This document shows positions 1,651 to 11,367 of a stretch of DNA of 64,000 nucleotides, piece after piece. Below the pieces are notes generated by a model. That model did no database searches. It saw only the letters and a list, made by a program, of their open reading frames with translations, and had not been told where the DNA came from. The stretch is from Salicibibacter cibarius (GTDB lineage Bacteria; Bacillota; Bacilli; Bacillales; Marinococcaceae), in assembly GCF_016495725.1 (NCBI RefSeq), contig NZ_CP054705.1:2046001-2110000 (forward strand), given 5' to 3'. Every line of letters begins with the position of its first letter. The first letter of the stretch is position 1. Made by a program: the position numbers and the translations under genes.

Positions 1651-1760
1651 TTGAACCTCTCGTCACTAAAGGAACGAGCTTCTTGAGTCCTAAGAACACT
1701 AACCTTACTCACTGGATTCCCAGCTTGAAGAGGGTTCGGTTATTTTATTAGGCTAACCCC
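1651..1760 (-). ncRNA. Right end and likely omega-RNA region of the TnpB element
   Basis: Downstream of the tnpB stop on the minus strand the sequence reads ACCCTCTTCAAGCTGGGAA, then GGACTCAAGAAGCTCGT, a CTCGT/ACGAG hairpin and GAGGTTCA, ending near 1651. This resembles the 3' ends of IS605-type tnpB elements, where the guide (omega) RNA spans the end of tnpB and the right-end hairpin. The guide would be templated by sequence just outside the GGTTCA end. The assignment is by pattern; expression is not shown. Confidence 0.4.
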
Positions 1761-2777
1761 GTGGTTCCCACGGTTGTTTGCTTCAAACCTTCGATCAAAA
1801 TATTTTGTGCCGCATTGAGGTCACGGTCGTGGAAGGCCACACATATCGGACACGTCCACTGGCGAATGTGCAGGAGTTTCTTCCCATCACGATGACCGCA
1901 ATTGGAACAGATTTGAGATGAATGAAAAAATCGATCAACTTCTATTACTGTTTTTCCGTACCAATCTGCTTTATACTTGAGTTGCCGCACAAGTGCTGAC
2001 CAAGATACGTCACTTACAGCCTTGGACAGTTTTCTGTTTCTCAGCATTCCTTTTGTATTCAAATCCTCAATACAAATGACATCGTGGTTTTTGATGATAT
2101 CTGTCGAGAATTTGTGTAAAAAGCCTAGACGCTGATTGGTCACTTGCTCATGCAAATGAGCAACTTTGATCTTTTGTTTTTGATAGTTCTTAGCTTGGTC
2201 GAGAGGAACACCTCTTTTCTTAGCTTCTAATCCCAGGCGAGACAGCTTTCGCTGCTCTCGGGTGAGTTTCTTTTCCATTGTTTGGGTAAATCGGTTGTTA
2301 TCTACTTTACGCCCTGTTGACAGGATGGCGAAATCGGTAATCCCAAGGTCAATGCCAACAGCAGAATTTGTTTTCTCTTTTGCTTCAATATGCTGCTCTG
2401 CCTTTAGGGATACGAAGTGCTTGCCTGAAGGTTTGCGAGTAATTGTAGCCGAGATAATGCGACCTTCAACCTTCAATCATATTGACAGGAACTTGGTACT
2501 TGCCTTGAATTGCACTCGTATATTTTTGTAAAGATGTGGCATCCACTTCCTATAACCGAGGAAATTCTTCCTTTAGTGCAGGAAGTAAATTTGCACAAAA
2601 ATTATAACTCAGACCTTTCCCCGAGACCTTGTACTCAGATTCCCACAAGGCACGAAAATGGTTAAATACATAACGGCTGCACCCAATGGTTTTGTTCATG
2701 AATGTTTCTTGGTCTTCCGTTGGGTAAAGGCGATATTGATAACCTTTGTACTTTACATTTATGCCTGCGTTTGTCAT
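1748..2777 (-). pseudogene. tnpB: tnpB (IS200/IS605-type RNA-guided nuclease), inactivated
   Basis: The N-terminal part (2777-2550) has the usual YKGYQYRLYPTEDQ start but meets an in-frame TAG after EEFPRL. The C-terminal part (2476-1748) holds the RuvC residues: Asp in GIDLGITDFA, Glu in CIEDLNTKGM, Asp in HDRDLNAAQNIL. It also has a four-Cys zinc finger (CSNCG and CPIC). Between them most of the usual linking region is missing and the frame shifts around 2478. A complete TnpB is near 370 residues. The catalytic half is well preserved, so the damage looks recent. The CPxCG glycine of the second finger knuckle is Val here. No tnpA lies nearby. Confidence 0.85.
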
Positions 2778-3951: not shown

Positions 3952-4563
3952 ATGCGCCTGGAACGGATCGCCGCTAATAAAATAAAAGTGTTTCTAACCT
4001 TTGATGATTTAAAAGAACGCGGGTTAACGAAAGATGATTTATGGATGGATCGTCCTCGCGTCCATCAACTATTTCGTGATCTCGTGATGGAGGCTGACGC
4101 TTCACTCGGTTTTAAGGCCGACGGAACGCTGTCCGTTGAAGTGTTTGCTTTGCCGGCGCAAGGCATGGTCATTCATATTTCCAAAACGGAAAACGAACAT
4201 GAAGATGATGACATGATTGAAATGGACATCACCGTAGATGAACGGCAAGATTTATTTTATAAATTCCATGATTTCGAAGCGGTATTGCAACTCGTTGCTT
4301 TATTAACCCGAATCGGCGTTAAAAGCGGTTCGCTCATGTCTATGGAAGGGCACTATTATCTTTGCTTTCCGGTGAGCACACGCTATTTTTTAGGGTATGA
4401 TCGTTTCGTCGCCCTCATTTCCGAGTTTGGAGAAGCTTGTCCCCATTCGCCCGTTGTCGTGACAGAACACGGATCATTGCTTATTGAAAAAGAGGCGGTA
4501 GCTGTATTGGCACGCGCCTTTGGTTTCGGAGCCGAATCTGTGGAAAACGAAGCCGATTTTTAA
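3952..4563 (+). CDS. ypbH: Adaptor protein MecA paralogue (YpbH/MecB)
   Basis: 203 residues. MecA-type adaptors hand substrates to the ClpC unfoldase, and B. subtilis YpbH is the MecA paralogue linked to competence and sporulation control. The N-terminal substrate-binding part (MRLERIAANKIKVFLTF, then DDLKERGLTKDDLW) and the C-terminal ClpC-binding fold (from about 105, with FEAVLQLVALL and YYLCFPV) are separated by an acidic linker (ENEHEDDDMIEMD, about 81-93), as in the family. AGGAGGGG lies just before the ATG. The gene is directly upstream of the gudB homologue, the same order as in B. subtilis. Confidence 0.9.
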   Translation: MRLERIAANKIKVFLTFDDLKERGLTKDDLWMDRPRVHQLFRDLVMEADASLGFKADGTLSVEVFALPAQGMVIHISKTENEHEDDDMIEMDITVDERQDLFYKFHDFEAVLQLVALLTRIGVKSGSLMSMEGHYYLCFPVSTRYFLGYDRFVALISEFGEACPHSPVVVTEHGSLLIEKEAVAVLARAFGFGAESVENEADF

Positions 4564-4642
4564 TATAGTTGAGAGGGAACATTACAAATTGGAAATGGGG
4601 CCAATCGCCCCCAATCCCATGAACCGCGCGGAGGTGACCCTG

Positions 4643-5905
4643 ATGGGTGGAGAATCGGAGCTTGATTCCGACAAAGAAAAAAGCCACCGTTTAACAATCA
4701 TACAAGCGCTTATGGCCTCATCTCTAAAAAAGTGGGGGTATGGACCTCAAGTTCATGCGTTGCTTAAAGAACCGCTCCGGACGCTCGCCGTTCGGATTCC
4801 CATAAAACTGGATAGCGGTGAGACCAAGATCTTCACCGGTTTCCGTGTCCAACATAATGATGCGATTGGGCCGGGGATCGGAGGGGTGCGGCTTCATCCC
4901 GAAGTGACGGAAAAAGATGTTCAGGCACAGGCGATTTGGACGTCGCTGCAAGCGGGAGTCATCGATATTCCATATGGAGGCGCGAGTGGCGCAATCGTTT
5001 GCAATCCAATGGAATTATCCTTTCGTGAACTTGAAGCATTGAGCCGCGGGTACATTCGGGCCATTGTCTCTTTTATCGACCCGACAAAAGATGTCATTGC
5101 TCCCGATGGCGTAACCAATACACAAATCATGGCGTGGATACTCGATGAATGCAGCCGGTTAAAAACGGATCACTCCCCCGGGTTTATTAGCGGAAATCCG
5201 TTGATTTTGGACGGGTCACTCGGGCGGGAAGCGGCTGTTGGGAAGGGCATCTCGATCATAGCCAAGTCAGCGGCCAAGCGAAAGAAGCTTCCGTTGGAAA
5301 AGACCTGCGCCATTATTCAAGGGTTCGGAAATGTCGGGACTTATGTTGCTAATACATTGAACGATGCCGGAGTAACGATCGTCGGCATCTCCGACGGCCA
5401 CGGCGCGCTTTACGATCCTGAGGGGCTTGATGTGGGTGACTTAATGGATCGCCGCGATAGCTTTGGCATGGTAACGAACGTTTTTAAAAAATCGATTTCC
5501 AAACATGAGCTGCTCGCTAAGGATTGCGATCTGATCGTTGATTCTTCCGGAGATCAAAAGAAGCTAACGACCCAAGACGTTGAAGCAATAAAAGCAAGTA
5601 TTTTTATCGAAGCCGGTAAGGGAAAGATAACGGGAGAAGCAAGTGAGCGTTTGCATCAACGTGGGACATGCGTGATCCCTGTCCTCTTGACGGGTGCCGC
5701 CAACACTGCCGTCTCTTATTTGGAAGGCGTCCAAAAAAACATTTGGACAGAAGAAGTGCATAACAAATTGGAAGAGATGTTGGAACGGGCATTGACATTC
5801 ATTGTTGATGCATCTTACAACCATGATGTGAATATGCATGAAGCTGCCCAAATGATCGGCATTCAAAAATTGGCGGTCGCAAGCTGTTTGCGCGGATGGG
5901 TATAA
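4643..5905 (+). CDS. gudB: Glutamate dehydrogenase homologue lacking the active-site lysines
   Basis: 420 residues, normal for NAD-GDH, in the gudB position after ypbH. The start has a GGAGGTGA site 7 bases upstream; the open frame extends further back into ypbH but without a site. The Glu/Leu/Phe/Val dehydrogenase fold is clear: FTGFRVQHND, RELEALSRGYIRAI, and Rossmann motif GFGNVG near 233-238. GDH binds and deaminates glutamate with three lysines, in PTKGGIRFHP, SLKCGI and GGGKGG in B. subtilis GudB. Here these are Ile79 (GPGIGGVRLHP), Gln103 (SLQAGV) and Ser115 (GGASGA). The catalytic Asp (Asp155 in IAPDGVT) remains. The later GANGPTT-type loop is GKGKIT. The reading frame is intact, so this looks like a kept, non-catalytic or re-purposed homologue, not a decaying gene. 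An active GDH would have to be encoded elsewhere. Confidence 0.85.
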   Translation: MGGESELDSDKEKSHRLTIIQALMASSLKKWGYGPQVHALLKEPLRTLAVRIPIKLDSGETKIFTGFRVQHNDAIGPGIGGVRLHPEVTEKDVQAQAIWTSLQAGVIDIPYGGASGAIVCNPMELSFRELEALSRGYIRAIVSFIDPTKDVIAPDGVTNTQIMAWILDECSRLKTDHSPGFISGNPLILDGSLGREAAVGKGISIIAKSAAKRKKLPLEKTCAIIQGFGNVGTYVANTLNDAGVTIVGISDGHGALYDPEGLDVGDLMDRRDSFGMVTNVFKKSISKHELLAKDCDLIVDSSGDQKKLTTQDVEAIKASIFIEAGKGKITGEASERLHQRGTCVIPVLLTGAANTAVSYLEGVQKNIWTEEVHNKLEEMLERALTFIVDASYNHDVNMHEAAQMIGIQKLAVASCLRGWV

Positions 5906-6191: not shown

Positions 6192-7184
6192 TTGATACAA
6201 GAGAAAATTCTAATCATTGGCGCCGGTCCATGTGGACTGGCGGCCGCGATCGCTTGCAAGGAAAAAGGATATGATCCCCTTATCATTGAAAAAGGAAATA
6301 TCGTTTCCGCCATTTATCACTATCCGACGCATCAAACCTTTTTCAGCACTGCCAATAAACTGGAAATCGGGGATGTTCCTTTTATTACGGTAGACCGTAA
6401 ACCTAGGCGGAGCGAGGCACTCGCTTACTACCGAGAAGTCGTCGAACGAAAACAATTGCGTATCCACACGTATGAAACCGTAGAAAATGTTCGCAAAACG
6501 GAGGACGGGACGTTTGTGGCGGAAACAACAGCTAAAGGGGAAAATAAAGCCTATCAAGCCGACTATGTTATTATGGCGACAGGCTATTATGATCATCCGA
6601 ATGAACTTGGCTGTGAAGGGGAGAACCTCCCCCATGTGTATCATTATTTTAAAGAATCCCACCCTTTCCATGGACAAAATGTTGTCGTGATCGGAGGGAA
6701 AAATTCAGCGGTTGATGCTACATTGGAGCTGGAAAAAGCAGGTGCAAACGTCACCGTTCTATATCGGGGAGAGACATATTCATCAAGCATTAAGCCGTGG
6801 ATTTTGCCTGAATTCGAAGGGCTTGTCCGAAAAGAAAGCATACGGATGGTATTCGGTGCAACGATTACCCGGATAACCGAGACGAGCGTTTATTTTGAAA
6901 AAGATGGCTGGGAAAATGAACTGGATGCCGATTTCGTGTTCGCGATGATCGGTTATCACCCTGATCATCCGTTTTTAACAGCTGCCGGTGTGGGAATTGA
7001 CAGAGATACGGGAAGACCCGTTTATGAACCGGAAAGCTTCGAAACAGATGTCCCTGGTCTTTTTGTCGCCGGTGTGTTGGCAGCCGGCAATAATGCGAAT
7101 GAGATTTTTATTGAAACGGGAAGATTTCACGGTTATCGGATTGCGGCGGCAATTGCAAACGCCGAAAATGTAAAGCGGACGTAA
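6192..7184 (+). CDS. ypdA: Bacillithiol disulfide reductase YpdA (Bdr)
   Basis: 330 residues. This FAD/NADPH oxidoreductase reduces oxidised bacillithiol disulfide. The FAD motif ILIIGAGPCGLAAA is at about 6-19 and includes the Cys of GPCG, the conserved active-site Cys of YpdA. A second dinucleotide motif VVVIGGKNSAVDA starts near 162. The C-terminal FVAGVLAAGNNANEIFIETGR closes the FAD site. The start is a TTG with GGAGGA 7 bases upstream. It sits after the gudB homologue as in B. subtilis. bshA, for bacillithiol synthesis, is also in this window at 60372. Confidence 0.9.
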   Translation: MIQEKILIIGAGPCGLAAAIACKEKGYDPLIIEKGNIVSAIYHYPTHQTFFSTANKLEIGDVPFITVDRKPRRSEALAYYREVVERKQLRIHTYETVENVRKTEDGTFVAETTAKGENKAYQADYVIMATGYYDHPNELGCEGENLPHVYHYFKESHPFHGQNVVVIGGKNSAVDATLELEKAGANVTVLYRGETYSSSIKPWILPEFEGLVRKESIRMVFGATITRITETSVYFEKDGWENELDADFVFAMIGYHPDHPFLTAAGVGIDRDTGRPVYEPESFETDVPGLFVAGVLAAGNNANEIFIETGRFHGYRIAAAIANAENVKRT

Positions 7185-7197
7185 GGGGATTCAAGCG

Positions 7198-8163
7198 ATG
7201 AAAAAGATTGCATTGATCACGACCGGGGGGACGATCGCGAGCAAAAAAACAGACGGAGGACGCTTGCGTGCCGGAGAAAAAAGCGGTGAAGAGCTCGTCG
7301 ATATGTGTGACGTCCCTTTTGAGTTGGAGATTGTTTCGTTGTTTAACAAACCGTCCATCCATCTCGGGTATGAAGATTTATGGCAATTAAAGGCATATAT
7401 TGAAGATTTGTTGCGACAAGAAGGAATCGATGGTGCGGTCGTTACTTCCGGGACGGATACGTTGGAAGAAGTCGCCTATTTTCTCGATTTGACGGTGGAG
7501 AACGAAAAACCTCTTGTCGTTACAGGTTCCATGCGAGGACCGGACCAAGTGGGCAGCGATGCGTTTGTTAATTTGCGAAATGCCATGATAGCCGCTGCCG
7601 ACGAACATACTGCCCAGCTCGGTTCGGTTGTCGTTTTTAATGATCATATTTTTTCTGCGAAATATGTACAAAAAACGCATGCTTCTAATGTACAAGGGTT
7701 TCATGCACCTGGATACGGATACTTTGGCTTGATTGACAATGACCGCGTCAATCTTTATCAAAGGCCGCTTTATCGCGATATTTATATACCGAAAACAAAG
7801 ATAGGATACTCCGGGTCTCAGGTTGAAATTATTAAAGCCCATTTAGGTTCGTCGCCATCATTGCTACGGCTTTTGCTGGAAACGGGGGCGACGCATGGGA
7901 TCGTCCTTGAAGGGTTAGGAAGAGGACAAGTTCCGCCGGCTTTTATGCCGGTGATCGCGAATGCCCGGGTCCCGATTGTGATTACGACGAGCGCAAATGA
8001 AGGCGAGGTCTATCCAGCATATGAATATGAAGGAAGCACGTACGATCTGATGAATCATGGGGTTATTTTAGGGAAGGATTATAGTAGCCGAAAAGCAAAG
8101 ATAAAGCTGCATGTGCTTTTGGAAACCGGTGTTACGGACCTCCAGGAAGCGTTCAACAAGTGA
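7198..8163 (+). CDS. ansA: L-asparaginase
   Basis: 321 residues. It hydrolyses asparagine to aspartate and ammonia. Both active-site signatures are present: TTGGTIAS (about 8-15, first nucleophilic Thr) and TSGTDTLEE (about 81-89). TGSMRGPDQVGSDAFVN follows. No signal peptide is seen, so it acts in the cytoplasm. It starts 13 bases after ypdA, which suggests co-transcription, and the 54-codon zinc-ribbon gene follows after 33 bases. Confidence 0.9.
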   Translation: MKKIALITTGGTIASKKTDGGRLRAGEKSGEELVDMCDVPFELEIVSLFNKPSIHLGYEDLWQLKAYIEDLLRQEGIDGAVVTSGTDTLEEVAYFLDLTVENEKPLVVTGSMRGPDQVGSDAFVNLRNAMIAAADEHTAQLGSVVVFNDHIFSAKYVQKTHASNVQGFHAPGYGYFGLIDNDRVNLYQRPLYRDIYIPKTKIGYSGSQVEIIKAHLGSSPSLLRLLLETGATHGIVLEGLGRGQVPPAFMPVIANARVPIVITTSANEGEVYPAYEYEGSTYDLMNHGVILGKDYSSRKAKIKLHVLLETGVTDLQEAFNK

Positions 8164-8392: not shown

Positions 8393-9983
8393 TTGAACAA
8401 AAAAGTTAGCGCCGCATTCCCCTTCAAAATCTACGATTTAGCGGGGGTTAGGCGCTAAGGTCTTGTTCTTAAAATTATTTCGAAAGAGGGGAAGTAACTA
8501 TCTGATGACCAAGTGTAGAATTAGACTTTACATAAAAGATAACGTAGAATAAAAAGCAAACAAATGTTTCTGATGTATATGACCTTGGAAAACTATCGGA
8601 AGGAGGGTTTGGTGATGAATAGAGTTAGAACTTTGTCACACAAGATTACAAACCATTCACGCATCTTCGATGCAACACTAGATATCTACAACGACGCACT
8701 GGCTTTTATAATCGAAGTCATAGAAAAAGGATTCGATACTCTTGGTGAGATGACGACGAAGTCTATCACTGTTGCGGTGGAAAAACTCATTCATACGACT
8801 AAATCAAACCCTTCTCCGAAGTGCCGGGCGTTTAATGTTCGGTTTTATAAGTTTCCTTCGTATTTCCGAAGAGAAGGCAATCGCTCTTTCTGAAGGGAGA
8901 AATTTTAAAAAGAGTCCTCCGAGGTTGCAATTAAAACAGAAGGCGTTTCCGGTGTTTTATCGAGGAAATATGTTTGAGAGAACATCAGAGACACGGCCCA
9001 AATCAAAATATTTCATAACAATGATTGGGTATGGATTGATATCGCATTTAAGGAACAAGACCTATATAAACGTGGGGTTTGGGATTTGGAGAGAAAACAA
9101 TCCTACACTTGTTAAGGTCGGGAAGAAGTATTTCCTTAACTTCAGCTATCAATCAAAAGTGGCATTAAATAAAACCAAAATTATTGACCAAAAAGTATGC
9201 GCAGTAGACTTAGGGATTAACAACTCTGCAGTTTGTTCCGTCATGGATGTAAACGGCACTGTCTTGGCTCGGGAGTTTATTAACCAGCTAAAAGAAAAAA
9301 GACCGGTTATATACGTTGACGAACAAACTACGTAAAGCACAACGGACGTCTGGTTGGATTGTAGCGCCGAATTTTTGGAGAAAAATCAATGGGGTTCAAA
9401 AACACATCGTGAATGATACGTCGCAGAAAATAGTGACATTTGCAAGTGAAAACAATTGCGATGTCATTGTATTCGAATTCCTGGACAAAATGAAGACGGT
9501 GAAAGGGTATTGGGGCGCGAAAAAACTTCGTTTTAAGCTCCGTTACTGGCGAAAGAAAGGGATTCTCAAAACAAGGTAACGGAGATGGCGCACTATCTTA
9601 GTATGCGCATATTAAGAGTGAATGCTCGTAATACGAGTAAATTGGCATTTGATGGTTCCGGAAAAGTGGAACGCAATGGCAAAAAAGACCTTGCCACGTT
9701 TACAACAGGCAAAGTCTATCATGCCGATTTATCGGGGTCATATAATATCGGCGCACGATATTTTGTTCGTGGCATTCAAAAAACCATTTCTGAAAAGCGA
9801 TGGTTGTCCCTTCAGGCAAAAGTTCCTGGTTTGGCAAAAAGGACATATACAACCTTATCTTCATTAATTAGCCTTACGAAAGCATTAGAGTCGCCGAAGG
9901 TGGCTTAACCGCTTTTGTTTGTGCCGTATTTAAGATAAGGGATGCTCCATCAAAATCTTTGATTTAGTTGAAGAGGTTCACAC
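8393..9983 (+). mobile_element. TnpB-like IS200/IS605-type element, decayed, full span
   Basis: The left end (TTGAAC then TTAGCGCCGCATTCCCC) matches the reversed copy at 766. The right end carries the pattern typical of these elements: GGGATGCTCCATC, CTTTGATTTAGTTGAAGAGG, then TTCACAC near 9983. Only a TnpB-like frame is carried and it is broken. The right end directly abuts the SAM-riboswitch operon. Confidence 0.7.
8615..9908 (+). pseudogene. TnpB-like protein with several frameshifts
   Basis: It starts at ATG 8615 behind GGAGGG and reads RTLSHKITNHSRIFD, TLDIYNDALAFI and EVIEKGFDTLGEMTTKSI. One frame shift occurs near 8860. A one-base loss near 8988 is compensated by a one-base gain near 9090, so the DQKVCAVDLGINNSAV motif is back in frame. 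Further breaks occur near 9320 and 9580. The C-terminal end SKLAFDGSGKVERN, then YHADLSGSYNIGARY, is the TnpB-related tail, but the zinc-type cysteines usual there (LCTF, YNCDLS) are Ala. Broken, so not functional. Confidence 0.8.
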
Positions 9984-10242: not shown

Positions 10243-11367
10243 ATGATGGAGAGGACATATACGAAGGAGACAAAGCTTGTGCAATCAGGCAACCGCAGAG
10301 ATGAACGTACCGGTGCCGTCAATGCGCCGATTTACATGAGCACGGCTTTTGAGCATACGGGTGTCGGTGAATCAACAGGCTATGATTATGCCCGTACCGG
10401 AAACCCTACGCGTGAGGTGCTTGAAGAGGCGATCGCCGAATTGGAAGGGGGAAGGCATGGCTTTGCCTGCAGTTCCGGTATGGCGGCGATTCAAGCTGTG
10501 CTCAGTTTGTTTTCTCAAGGAGACGAAATCATCGCTTCCATGGATTTGTATGGCGGCACATACCGATTGTTTCGCCAATACTGGCCGCAATGGGGGGTCG
10601 ACGTTCATTATGTTGACCCGCGAGACTTGCAATCCGTTGAGCAAATGATTGAAAAGAATACGAAAGCGTTGTTTATTGAAACGCCGACAAATCCTCTAAT
10701 GCAGGAAGCGGATTTAGATGCACTCAGTCAAATAGCCGAGGAACATAATTTGCTCATGATTGTTGACAACACGTTTTACACCCCGTTATTGCAAAGGCCT
10801 ATTGAATTTGGCGCGGATATTGTGATTCATAGCGCCACTAAATATTTGGGCGGCCATAATGATATCGTGGCAGGGCTCGTCGTTACTGATGATGAAGCGT
10901 TAGGGGAGCGTCTTTTCAATATTCAAAATGGGATTGGGATGACACTCGGAGCTTTTGACTCCTGGCTGCTACTTCGCGGAATGAAAACGCTGGCGCTAAG
11001 AATGGAAAAACATCAACAAAATGCCCGCGCGGTTTGTGAAATGTTAAAAAAACATCCGCTTATCACGGAAGTCCTCTATACGGGCAAAGGAGGAATGCTT
11101 TCGTTTAAAGTTCAGGACGAGAAGCTCGTCGACCCATTGCTTCGCCATTTGCGGCTCGTCACATTTGCCGAAAGTCTGGGCGGCGTCGAAAGTTTAATGA
11201 CGTATCCGAGTGTTCAAACCCACGCGGATATTCCCGAAAACGTTCGGATTAAAAACGGCGTGACGAATGAATTAATGCGTTTATCTTGCGGCATTGAAAA
11301 TCACGAAGATATCATTGCCGATATTGAATGGGCCCTACAGGAAGCTGGACGCGCGATCCAAGTATAG
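10243..11367 (+). CDS. metI: Cystathionine gamma-synthase / O-acetylhomoserine thiolyase (MetI)
   Basis: 374 residues. A PLP enzyme joining activated homoserine to cysteine (or sulfide) in methionine synthesis. The Cys/Met-metabolism PLP fold is complete: YDYARTGNPTREVLE near 45, CSSGMAAI near 75, Asp in IVDNTF, and the PLP lysine in HSATKYLGGHND. The start follows AAAGGAG after 5 bases; ATG at 10246 is equally possible. It is the first gene of the SAM-riboswitch transcript, followed 23 bases later by yitJ. No separate cystathionine beta-lyase gene lies in this operon. Confidence 0.9.
   Translation: MMERTYTKETKLVQSGNRRDERTGAVNAPIYMSTAFEHTGVGESTGYDYARTGNPTREVLEEAIAELEGGRHGFACSSGMAAIQAVLSLFSQGDEIIASMDLYGGTYRLFRQYWPQWGVDVHYVDPRDLQSVEQMIEKNTKALFIETPTNPLMQEADLDALSQIAEEHNLLMIVDNTFYTPLLQRPIEFGADIVIHSATKYLGGHNDIVAGLVVTDDEALGERLFNIQNGIGMTLGAFDSWLLLRGMKTLALRMEKHQQNARAVCEMLKKHPLITEVLYTGKGGMLSFKVQDEKLVDPLLRHLRLVTFAESLGGVESLMTYPSVQTHADIPENVRIKNGVTNELMRLSCGIENHEDIIADIEWALQEAGRAIQV

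Follow-up and report, generated by a model that had tools for sequence, protein, structure and literature searches.

The window analyzed here comprises 64,000 nucleotides (G000:C1:2046001-2110000) of a 4.5-Mb single-contig genome. It contains an unbroken open reading frame (ORF) of 420 amino acids, whose best Protein Data Bank (PDB) matches are GudB and RocG of Bacillus subtilis, both aligned over nearly the full length of the protein. The identity to B. subtilis GudB is approximately 48 to 49% (7mfm, E value of 1e-132; 3k8z, E value of 1e-130). The encoded protein is a two-domain glutamate dehydrogenase (GDH) of the Glu/Leu/Phe/Val dehydrogenase superfamily, with Pfam scores above the gathering scores for PF02812 (ELFV_dehydrog_N; 141.1 versus 25.3 bits) and PF00208 (ELFV_dehydrog; 144.3 versus 23.4 bits). 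The GDH models of NCBIfam also match, with scores far under their cut-offs. A structure model of the protein shows the GDH fold, with TM scores of 0.75 to 0.86 to GudB/RocG and low confidence at residues 147 to 192 in the cleft region. The features of the locus are listed in Table 1.

The gene order sir2-ypbH-gudB-ypdA-ansA-metB is common, with small variations, to relatives with canonical gudB and to those with the form described here. The position after ypbH, pointed out in a preliminary description of this DNA, is therefore that of an ordinary gudB neighborhood. In addition to lying between ypbH and ypdA, the gene falls inside the gudB clade and apart from rocG. It is the in-place gudB orthologue, neither rocG nor an additional copy. 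Upstream comparison showed that the GGAGGTG and ATGGGG of its start are kept across all four genera that carry this form. Elsewhere in the window, ORFs resembling TnpB/OrfB-type transposase genes or fragments were recognized by eye from their cysteine motifs at 1748-2476 (minus strand) and 8564-9908 (plus strand).

Table 1. Features of the gudB locus (window coordinates)
Feature	Position	Strand	Basis
Shine-Dalgarno sequence GGAGGTGA, 5 nt before ATG 4643	4630..4637	+	sequence; upstream comparison
ypbH (MecA-type ClpC adaptor), upstream neighbor	3952..4563	+	domain matches; gene-order comparison
Dead GudB orthologue gene (420 aa + stop; protein 4643-5902)	4643..5905	+	ORF; PDB/GudB match; Pfam
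PGIGGVRLHPE, former PTKGG loop, Ile79; codons 77-87	4871..4903	+	alignments
SLQAG, former SLKCG, Gln103; codons 101-105	4943..4957	+	alignments
IPYGGASGAIVCNP, rewritten catalytic-lysine loop, Ser115; codons 109-122	4967..5008	+	alignments
Dinucleotide motif GFGNVG, retained; codons 224-237	5312..5353	+	alignments
LYDPEGLDVGDLMDRRDSFGMVTNVFKKSIS, stretch with the highest conservation in the dead clade; codons 256-286 (31 residues)	5408..5500	+	alignments
LIVDSSGDQKKLT, replacing NAD-side LVPAAIENQIT; codons 297-309	5531..5569	+	alignments
ypdA (bacillithiol disulfide reductase family), downstream neighbor	6192..7184	+	family match; gene order
Asparaginase gene, ansA-like, next after ypdA	7198..8163	+	family match; gene order

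Three active-site lysines serve glutamate binding and catalysis in active GDHs. The window protein has none of them, carrying Ile79, Gln103, and Ser115 instead. Alignment with GudB reproduced the three replacements exactly as first noted, namely, PTKGG to PGIGG, SLKCG to SLQAG, and GGGKGG to GGASGA. The losses extend further: PAAIENQI has become DSSGDQKKL, EAANGPTT has become EAGKGKIT, and ASAGGVTVSYFEW has become TGAANTAVSYLEG. The nicotinamide-side motifs PAAIEN and AANGPT of active GDHs are thus absent, with DSSGDQKK and AGKGKI in their place, and the window copy is without four residues near 366 to 369. The Rossmann motif, length, and frame are kept, as the preliminary description had stated: GFGNxG (GFGNVG in the window protein) and the SD after beta-2 are retained, the ORF is intact, and the GudB match runs nearly end to end. 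The former catalytic Asp is also kept in most sequences of this type and is Glu in that of G003. Given the established chemistry of GDHs, the loss of the lysines and of the nicotinamide-side motifs predicts a product unable to oxidize glutamate, referred to here as dead GudB.

All four genomes of the window's genus carry the lysine-less gene (the window genome, G000, and G001, G002, and G003), and the three lysines are also missing in Natribacillus halophilus (L020/L021), G010, and G011/G014. The same three losses are thus found in eight intact proteins from four genera, at the same place (ypbH-gene-ypdA-ansA). In the orthologue comparison proposed earlier, all close relatives show the same substitutions and none has the lysines restored, which rules out a local mutation or a sequencing error. 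In G012 and G013, dead gudB is interrupted by one frameshift per gene; each stems from a single indel in a draft genome and may be of recent date or an error. When 397 genomes of the order were searched with a profile of the dead form, the dead forms scored at least 735 bits and everything else at most 603 bits, and no further dead GudB was found outside the clade in this sample.

In the gene tree, the dead forms make up one clade, which persists with a support of 95/96 after removal of 86 active-site columns; the grouping is therefore no artifact of common active-site changes. The host genera likewise form a clade in the neighbor-gene tree (support, 100/99), which together with the in-place orthology rules out an extra paralogue or a transferred gene. 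We conclude that the active-site chemistry was lost once, in the common ancestor of four genera of salt-loving Bacillus relatives. Twelve positions, most of them in the cleft, changed and were then held in all eight dead proteins (E92D, L109I, G114A, K115S, G117A, D121N, P152I, A252G, T284S, P300D, A302S, and A350T).

Altered gud-locus genes also occur elsewhere in the family. In another genus, the gud-locus GDHs of G009 and G008 (L029/L030) retain the lysines and have APE for APD, GGSKGG for GGGKGG, and AASGS for AANGP, a pattern that may indicate that the active site has partly eroded a second time. G004 has a long-branched gudB beside ypdA (L031) that lacks the second lysine (SLQSG), retains the first and third, and has SSD for APD. 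Its position as sister to the dead clade, seen in a first tree, was gone in a second.

Pairwise dN/dS values of dead gudB range from 0.14 to 0.26 within the window's genus and from 0.09 to 0.14 to Natribacillus. A codon model (GY94 type, F3x4) was fitted to five genomes, with the topology picked on lnL. Over the tree, omega equals 0.18 for dead gudB and 0.11 for five neighbor genes, marking dead gudB as the faster evolving. On single branches, it amounts to 0.09 (Natribacillus), 0.16 (G002), 0.25 (G001), 0.27 (G003), and 0.52 (window genome). Neutrality (omega of 1) was rejected on three of the four tested tips of the genus (G001, G002, and G003) and was not rejected on the window tip (2dlnL of 3.0; omega of about 0.5). 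The frame is intact in eight genomes and has been held in four genera across nearly saturated synonymous distance. With dN/dS values of 0.09 to 0.27 on most branches, dead gudB does not behave as a plain pseudogene there. The dN/dS check suggested in the preliminary description thus points to purifying selection, except on the window tip. Constraint has weakened in the window lineage, where the role of the protein may be fading, given this omega and the frameshifts in two relatives.

Conservation is unevenly distributed along the protein. Residues 256 to 286 share an identity of 0.89 with the remote g6 proteins, versus 0.43 for the whole protein and 0.73 for this stretch among working GudB/RocG enzymes, and none of 5,000 column shuffles attained this value. 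For the rewritten loop at 109 to 122, the identity between g6 and the other dead genera is 0.87 (working enzymes, 0.92), a value attained by 0.8% of column shuffles, and 12 of its 14 residues are invariant in the dead clade. Regions 166 to 195, 316 to 330, and 346 to 360, which in working enzymes close over the substrate and nicotinamide, show identities of only 0.22 to 0.44 between g6 and the other dead genera, versus 0.82 to 0.93 in working enzymes. Synonymous change in 256 to 286 and 109 to 122 is about the same as elsewhere in the gene. Selection therefore acts on the protein in these stretches, and a DNA-level element overlapping the conserved stretch can be set aside. That conservation in parts of the dead protein exceeds that of the working enzyme suggests that the protein is kept for a noncatalytic job. 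The presence of one clade in four genera, at the same locus and under purifying selection, supports on sequence grounds the initial reading of a conserved, probably noncatalytic GDH.

That reading had offered, among other roles, that of a subunit tuning a genuine GDH. Such a case is known from Thermus thermophilus, in which the catalytically inactive GdhA acts as a regulatory subunit (PMC9570180). Dead GudB resembles Thermus GdhA (PDB 3aoe) in its GDH fold and its predicted lack of catalysis. However, GdhA shares a hexamer with the catalytic GdhB, whereas most dead-GudB genomes are without a close canonical partner: no canonical GudB/RocG was found in the four genomes of the window's genus, in Natribacillus, or in four g6 genomes. 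Among the dead-GudB hosts, only G010 has retained a canonical RocG. This second GDH shares 73% identity with GudB of B. subtilis, and its locus, named by eye, reads as a RocG locus, flanked by aminotransferase and PAS-type regulator genes. The remaining GDHs of the hosts are approximately 25 to 35% identical, a divergence at which co-assembly is unlikely. The tuning role is weakened accordingly, and a hetero-oligomeric GDH with dead GudB as its regulatory subunit seems very improbable. The search for a second GDH thus returned no canonical enzyme in the window's genus; at other loci, the window genome encodes GDHs of different types in which all three lysines are present. One of them (L003:1348-2739), a 463-amino-acid GDH with all three lysines, adjoins a membrane transporter gene; each of the four genomes of the genus has it, as do several others of the family. 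This enzyme may have taken over glutamate oxidation. A role as regulator, also proposed, survives in part. Working GudB and RocG of B. subtilis have a known second function, the inactivation of GltC (PMC6794564), and dead GudB could exert the same trigger-type control. However, GltC, searched at an E value of 1e-50 with a query sequence that retrieved the GltC of a B. subtilis relative at 93%, was detected in four of the five genomes used for comparison and in none of the 10 dead-GudB genomes. No gltC adjoins gltA. Control of GltC by dead GudB is hardly conceivable in these hosts.

Alternatively, dead gudB could be a relic. Another GDH (the 463-amino-acid type or GdhA) would have taken over glutamate oxidation, leaving the inactive gene to drift and be lost lineage by lineage, with the remaining conservation due to selection against misfolding. 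The omega of about 0.5 in the window lineage, with neutrality not rejected, the value of 0.27 on the G003 tip, the two frameshifts, the evolutionary rate exceeding that of the neighbors, and the presence of other GDHs with all lysines agree with this scenario. It is harder to reconcile with a frame that persists in four genera although synonymous distance is nearly saturated, an omega of 0.09 in Natribacillus, twelve changes that were then held, and a stretch at 256 to 286 conserved beyond the working enzyme, and the frameshifts themselves may be recent or erroneous, as noted above. We consider a relic unlikely. It is more doubtful still that the rewritten cleft (GASGA, SLQ/SLH, and P.IG) senses or converts a small molecule other than glutamate. 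The near invariance of loop 109 to 122, the kept NAD motif, and the former catalytic Asp of most sequences would fit such a new ligand or reaction, but against it stand the loss of the lysine on which amino acid dehydrogenase chemistry depends, the replacement of the Asp by Glu in G003, the divergence of the nicotinamide-side motifs, and the low model confidence at 147 to 192.

Taken together, dead GudB is probably a pseudoenzyme kept for binding, an in-place gudB orthologue whose active-site chemistry was lost in a common ancestor. In the ancestor of the four genera, the three substrate and catalytic lysines disappeared together with the nicotinamide half of the cofactor site. Purifying selection continued to act on the overall fold, on the adenosine side of the dinucleotide site, on the loop GASGAI.CNP, and on residues 256 to 286. 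Through the latter stretch, the GDH-fold protein would bind another protein, and an adenine dinucleotide perhaps gates the binding of this partner. More specifically, and only tentatively, dead GudB could be a dedicated nonenzymatic binder that acts via 256 to 286 and perhaps responds to a dinucleotide, with a cleft rewritten once and then held and a partner other than GltC and not necessarily another GDH.

GudB is a well-studied enzyme with second, protein-binding roles, and evolution seems to have stripped it of catalysis here while retaining the rest. Dead GudB shares with B. subtilis GudB (PDB 3k8z and 7mfm) the fold, length, approximately 49% identity, gene neighborhood, dinucleotide motif, and RRDSFG.VT stretch, but differs in the replacement of all three lysines and the nicotinamide-side motifs. 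An inactive GudB at the same locus is also known from B. subtilis 168, in which the cryptic GudB-CR owes its inactivity to a short repeat and its product undergoes rapid degradation (PMC4285742); the dead clade, in contrast, has numerous substitutions fixed across its four genera. Inactive GDH subunits and an inactive laboratory GudB are already known. A literature search confined largely to freely accessible papers returned no description of the dead-GudB clade, a probable GDH pseudoenzyme that arose by in-place change of gudB. The dead GudBs form a natural separation-of-function set, and their comparison with working GudB singles out 256 to 286 as a stretch that is maintained independently of glutamate oxidation, a point testable in B. 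subtilis. Annotation by overall similarity would label the dead gene a glutamate dehydrogenase, which calls for caution.

The most concrete candidate partner is glutamate synthase (GltAB; GOGAT), since it binds GudB in B. subtilis, where it inactivates the working enzyme (PMC10938345). Similar to this counter-enzyme complex (PDB 7mfm and 7mft), a GudB-type protein and GltAB co-occur here: of the eight genomes with intact dead GudB, six also have an intact gltB (G000, G001, G010, G011, G014, and G020). However, dead GudB is predicted to have no activity to inactivate, and in G003 the gltAB operon is absent from its syntenic place between the usual neighbors (L098, about 10583-11146). In G002, gltB is split. 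Because the 256-286 stretch persists in both genomes, where an omega of 1 was also rejected, GltAB stays a candidate by analogy and no conclusion. Across the family, defects of gltB (absence, splitting, truncation, or interruption) occur in G002, G003, G004, G008, G009, and G013, whose gud-locus genes are all altered, and gltB is intact in the family's six genomes with a fully canonical gud-locus gene, a comparison of small numbers that ignores kinship and includes some drafts. No gltB was found in G009 and G004, and that of G008 has an internal TAG.
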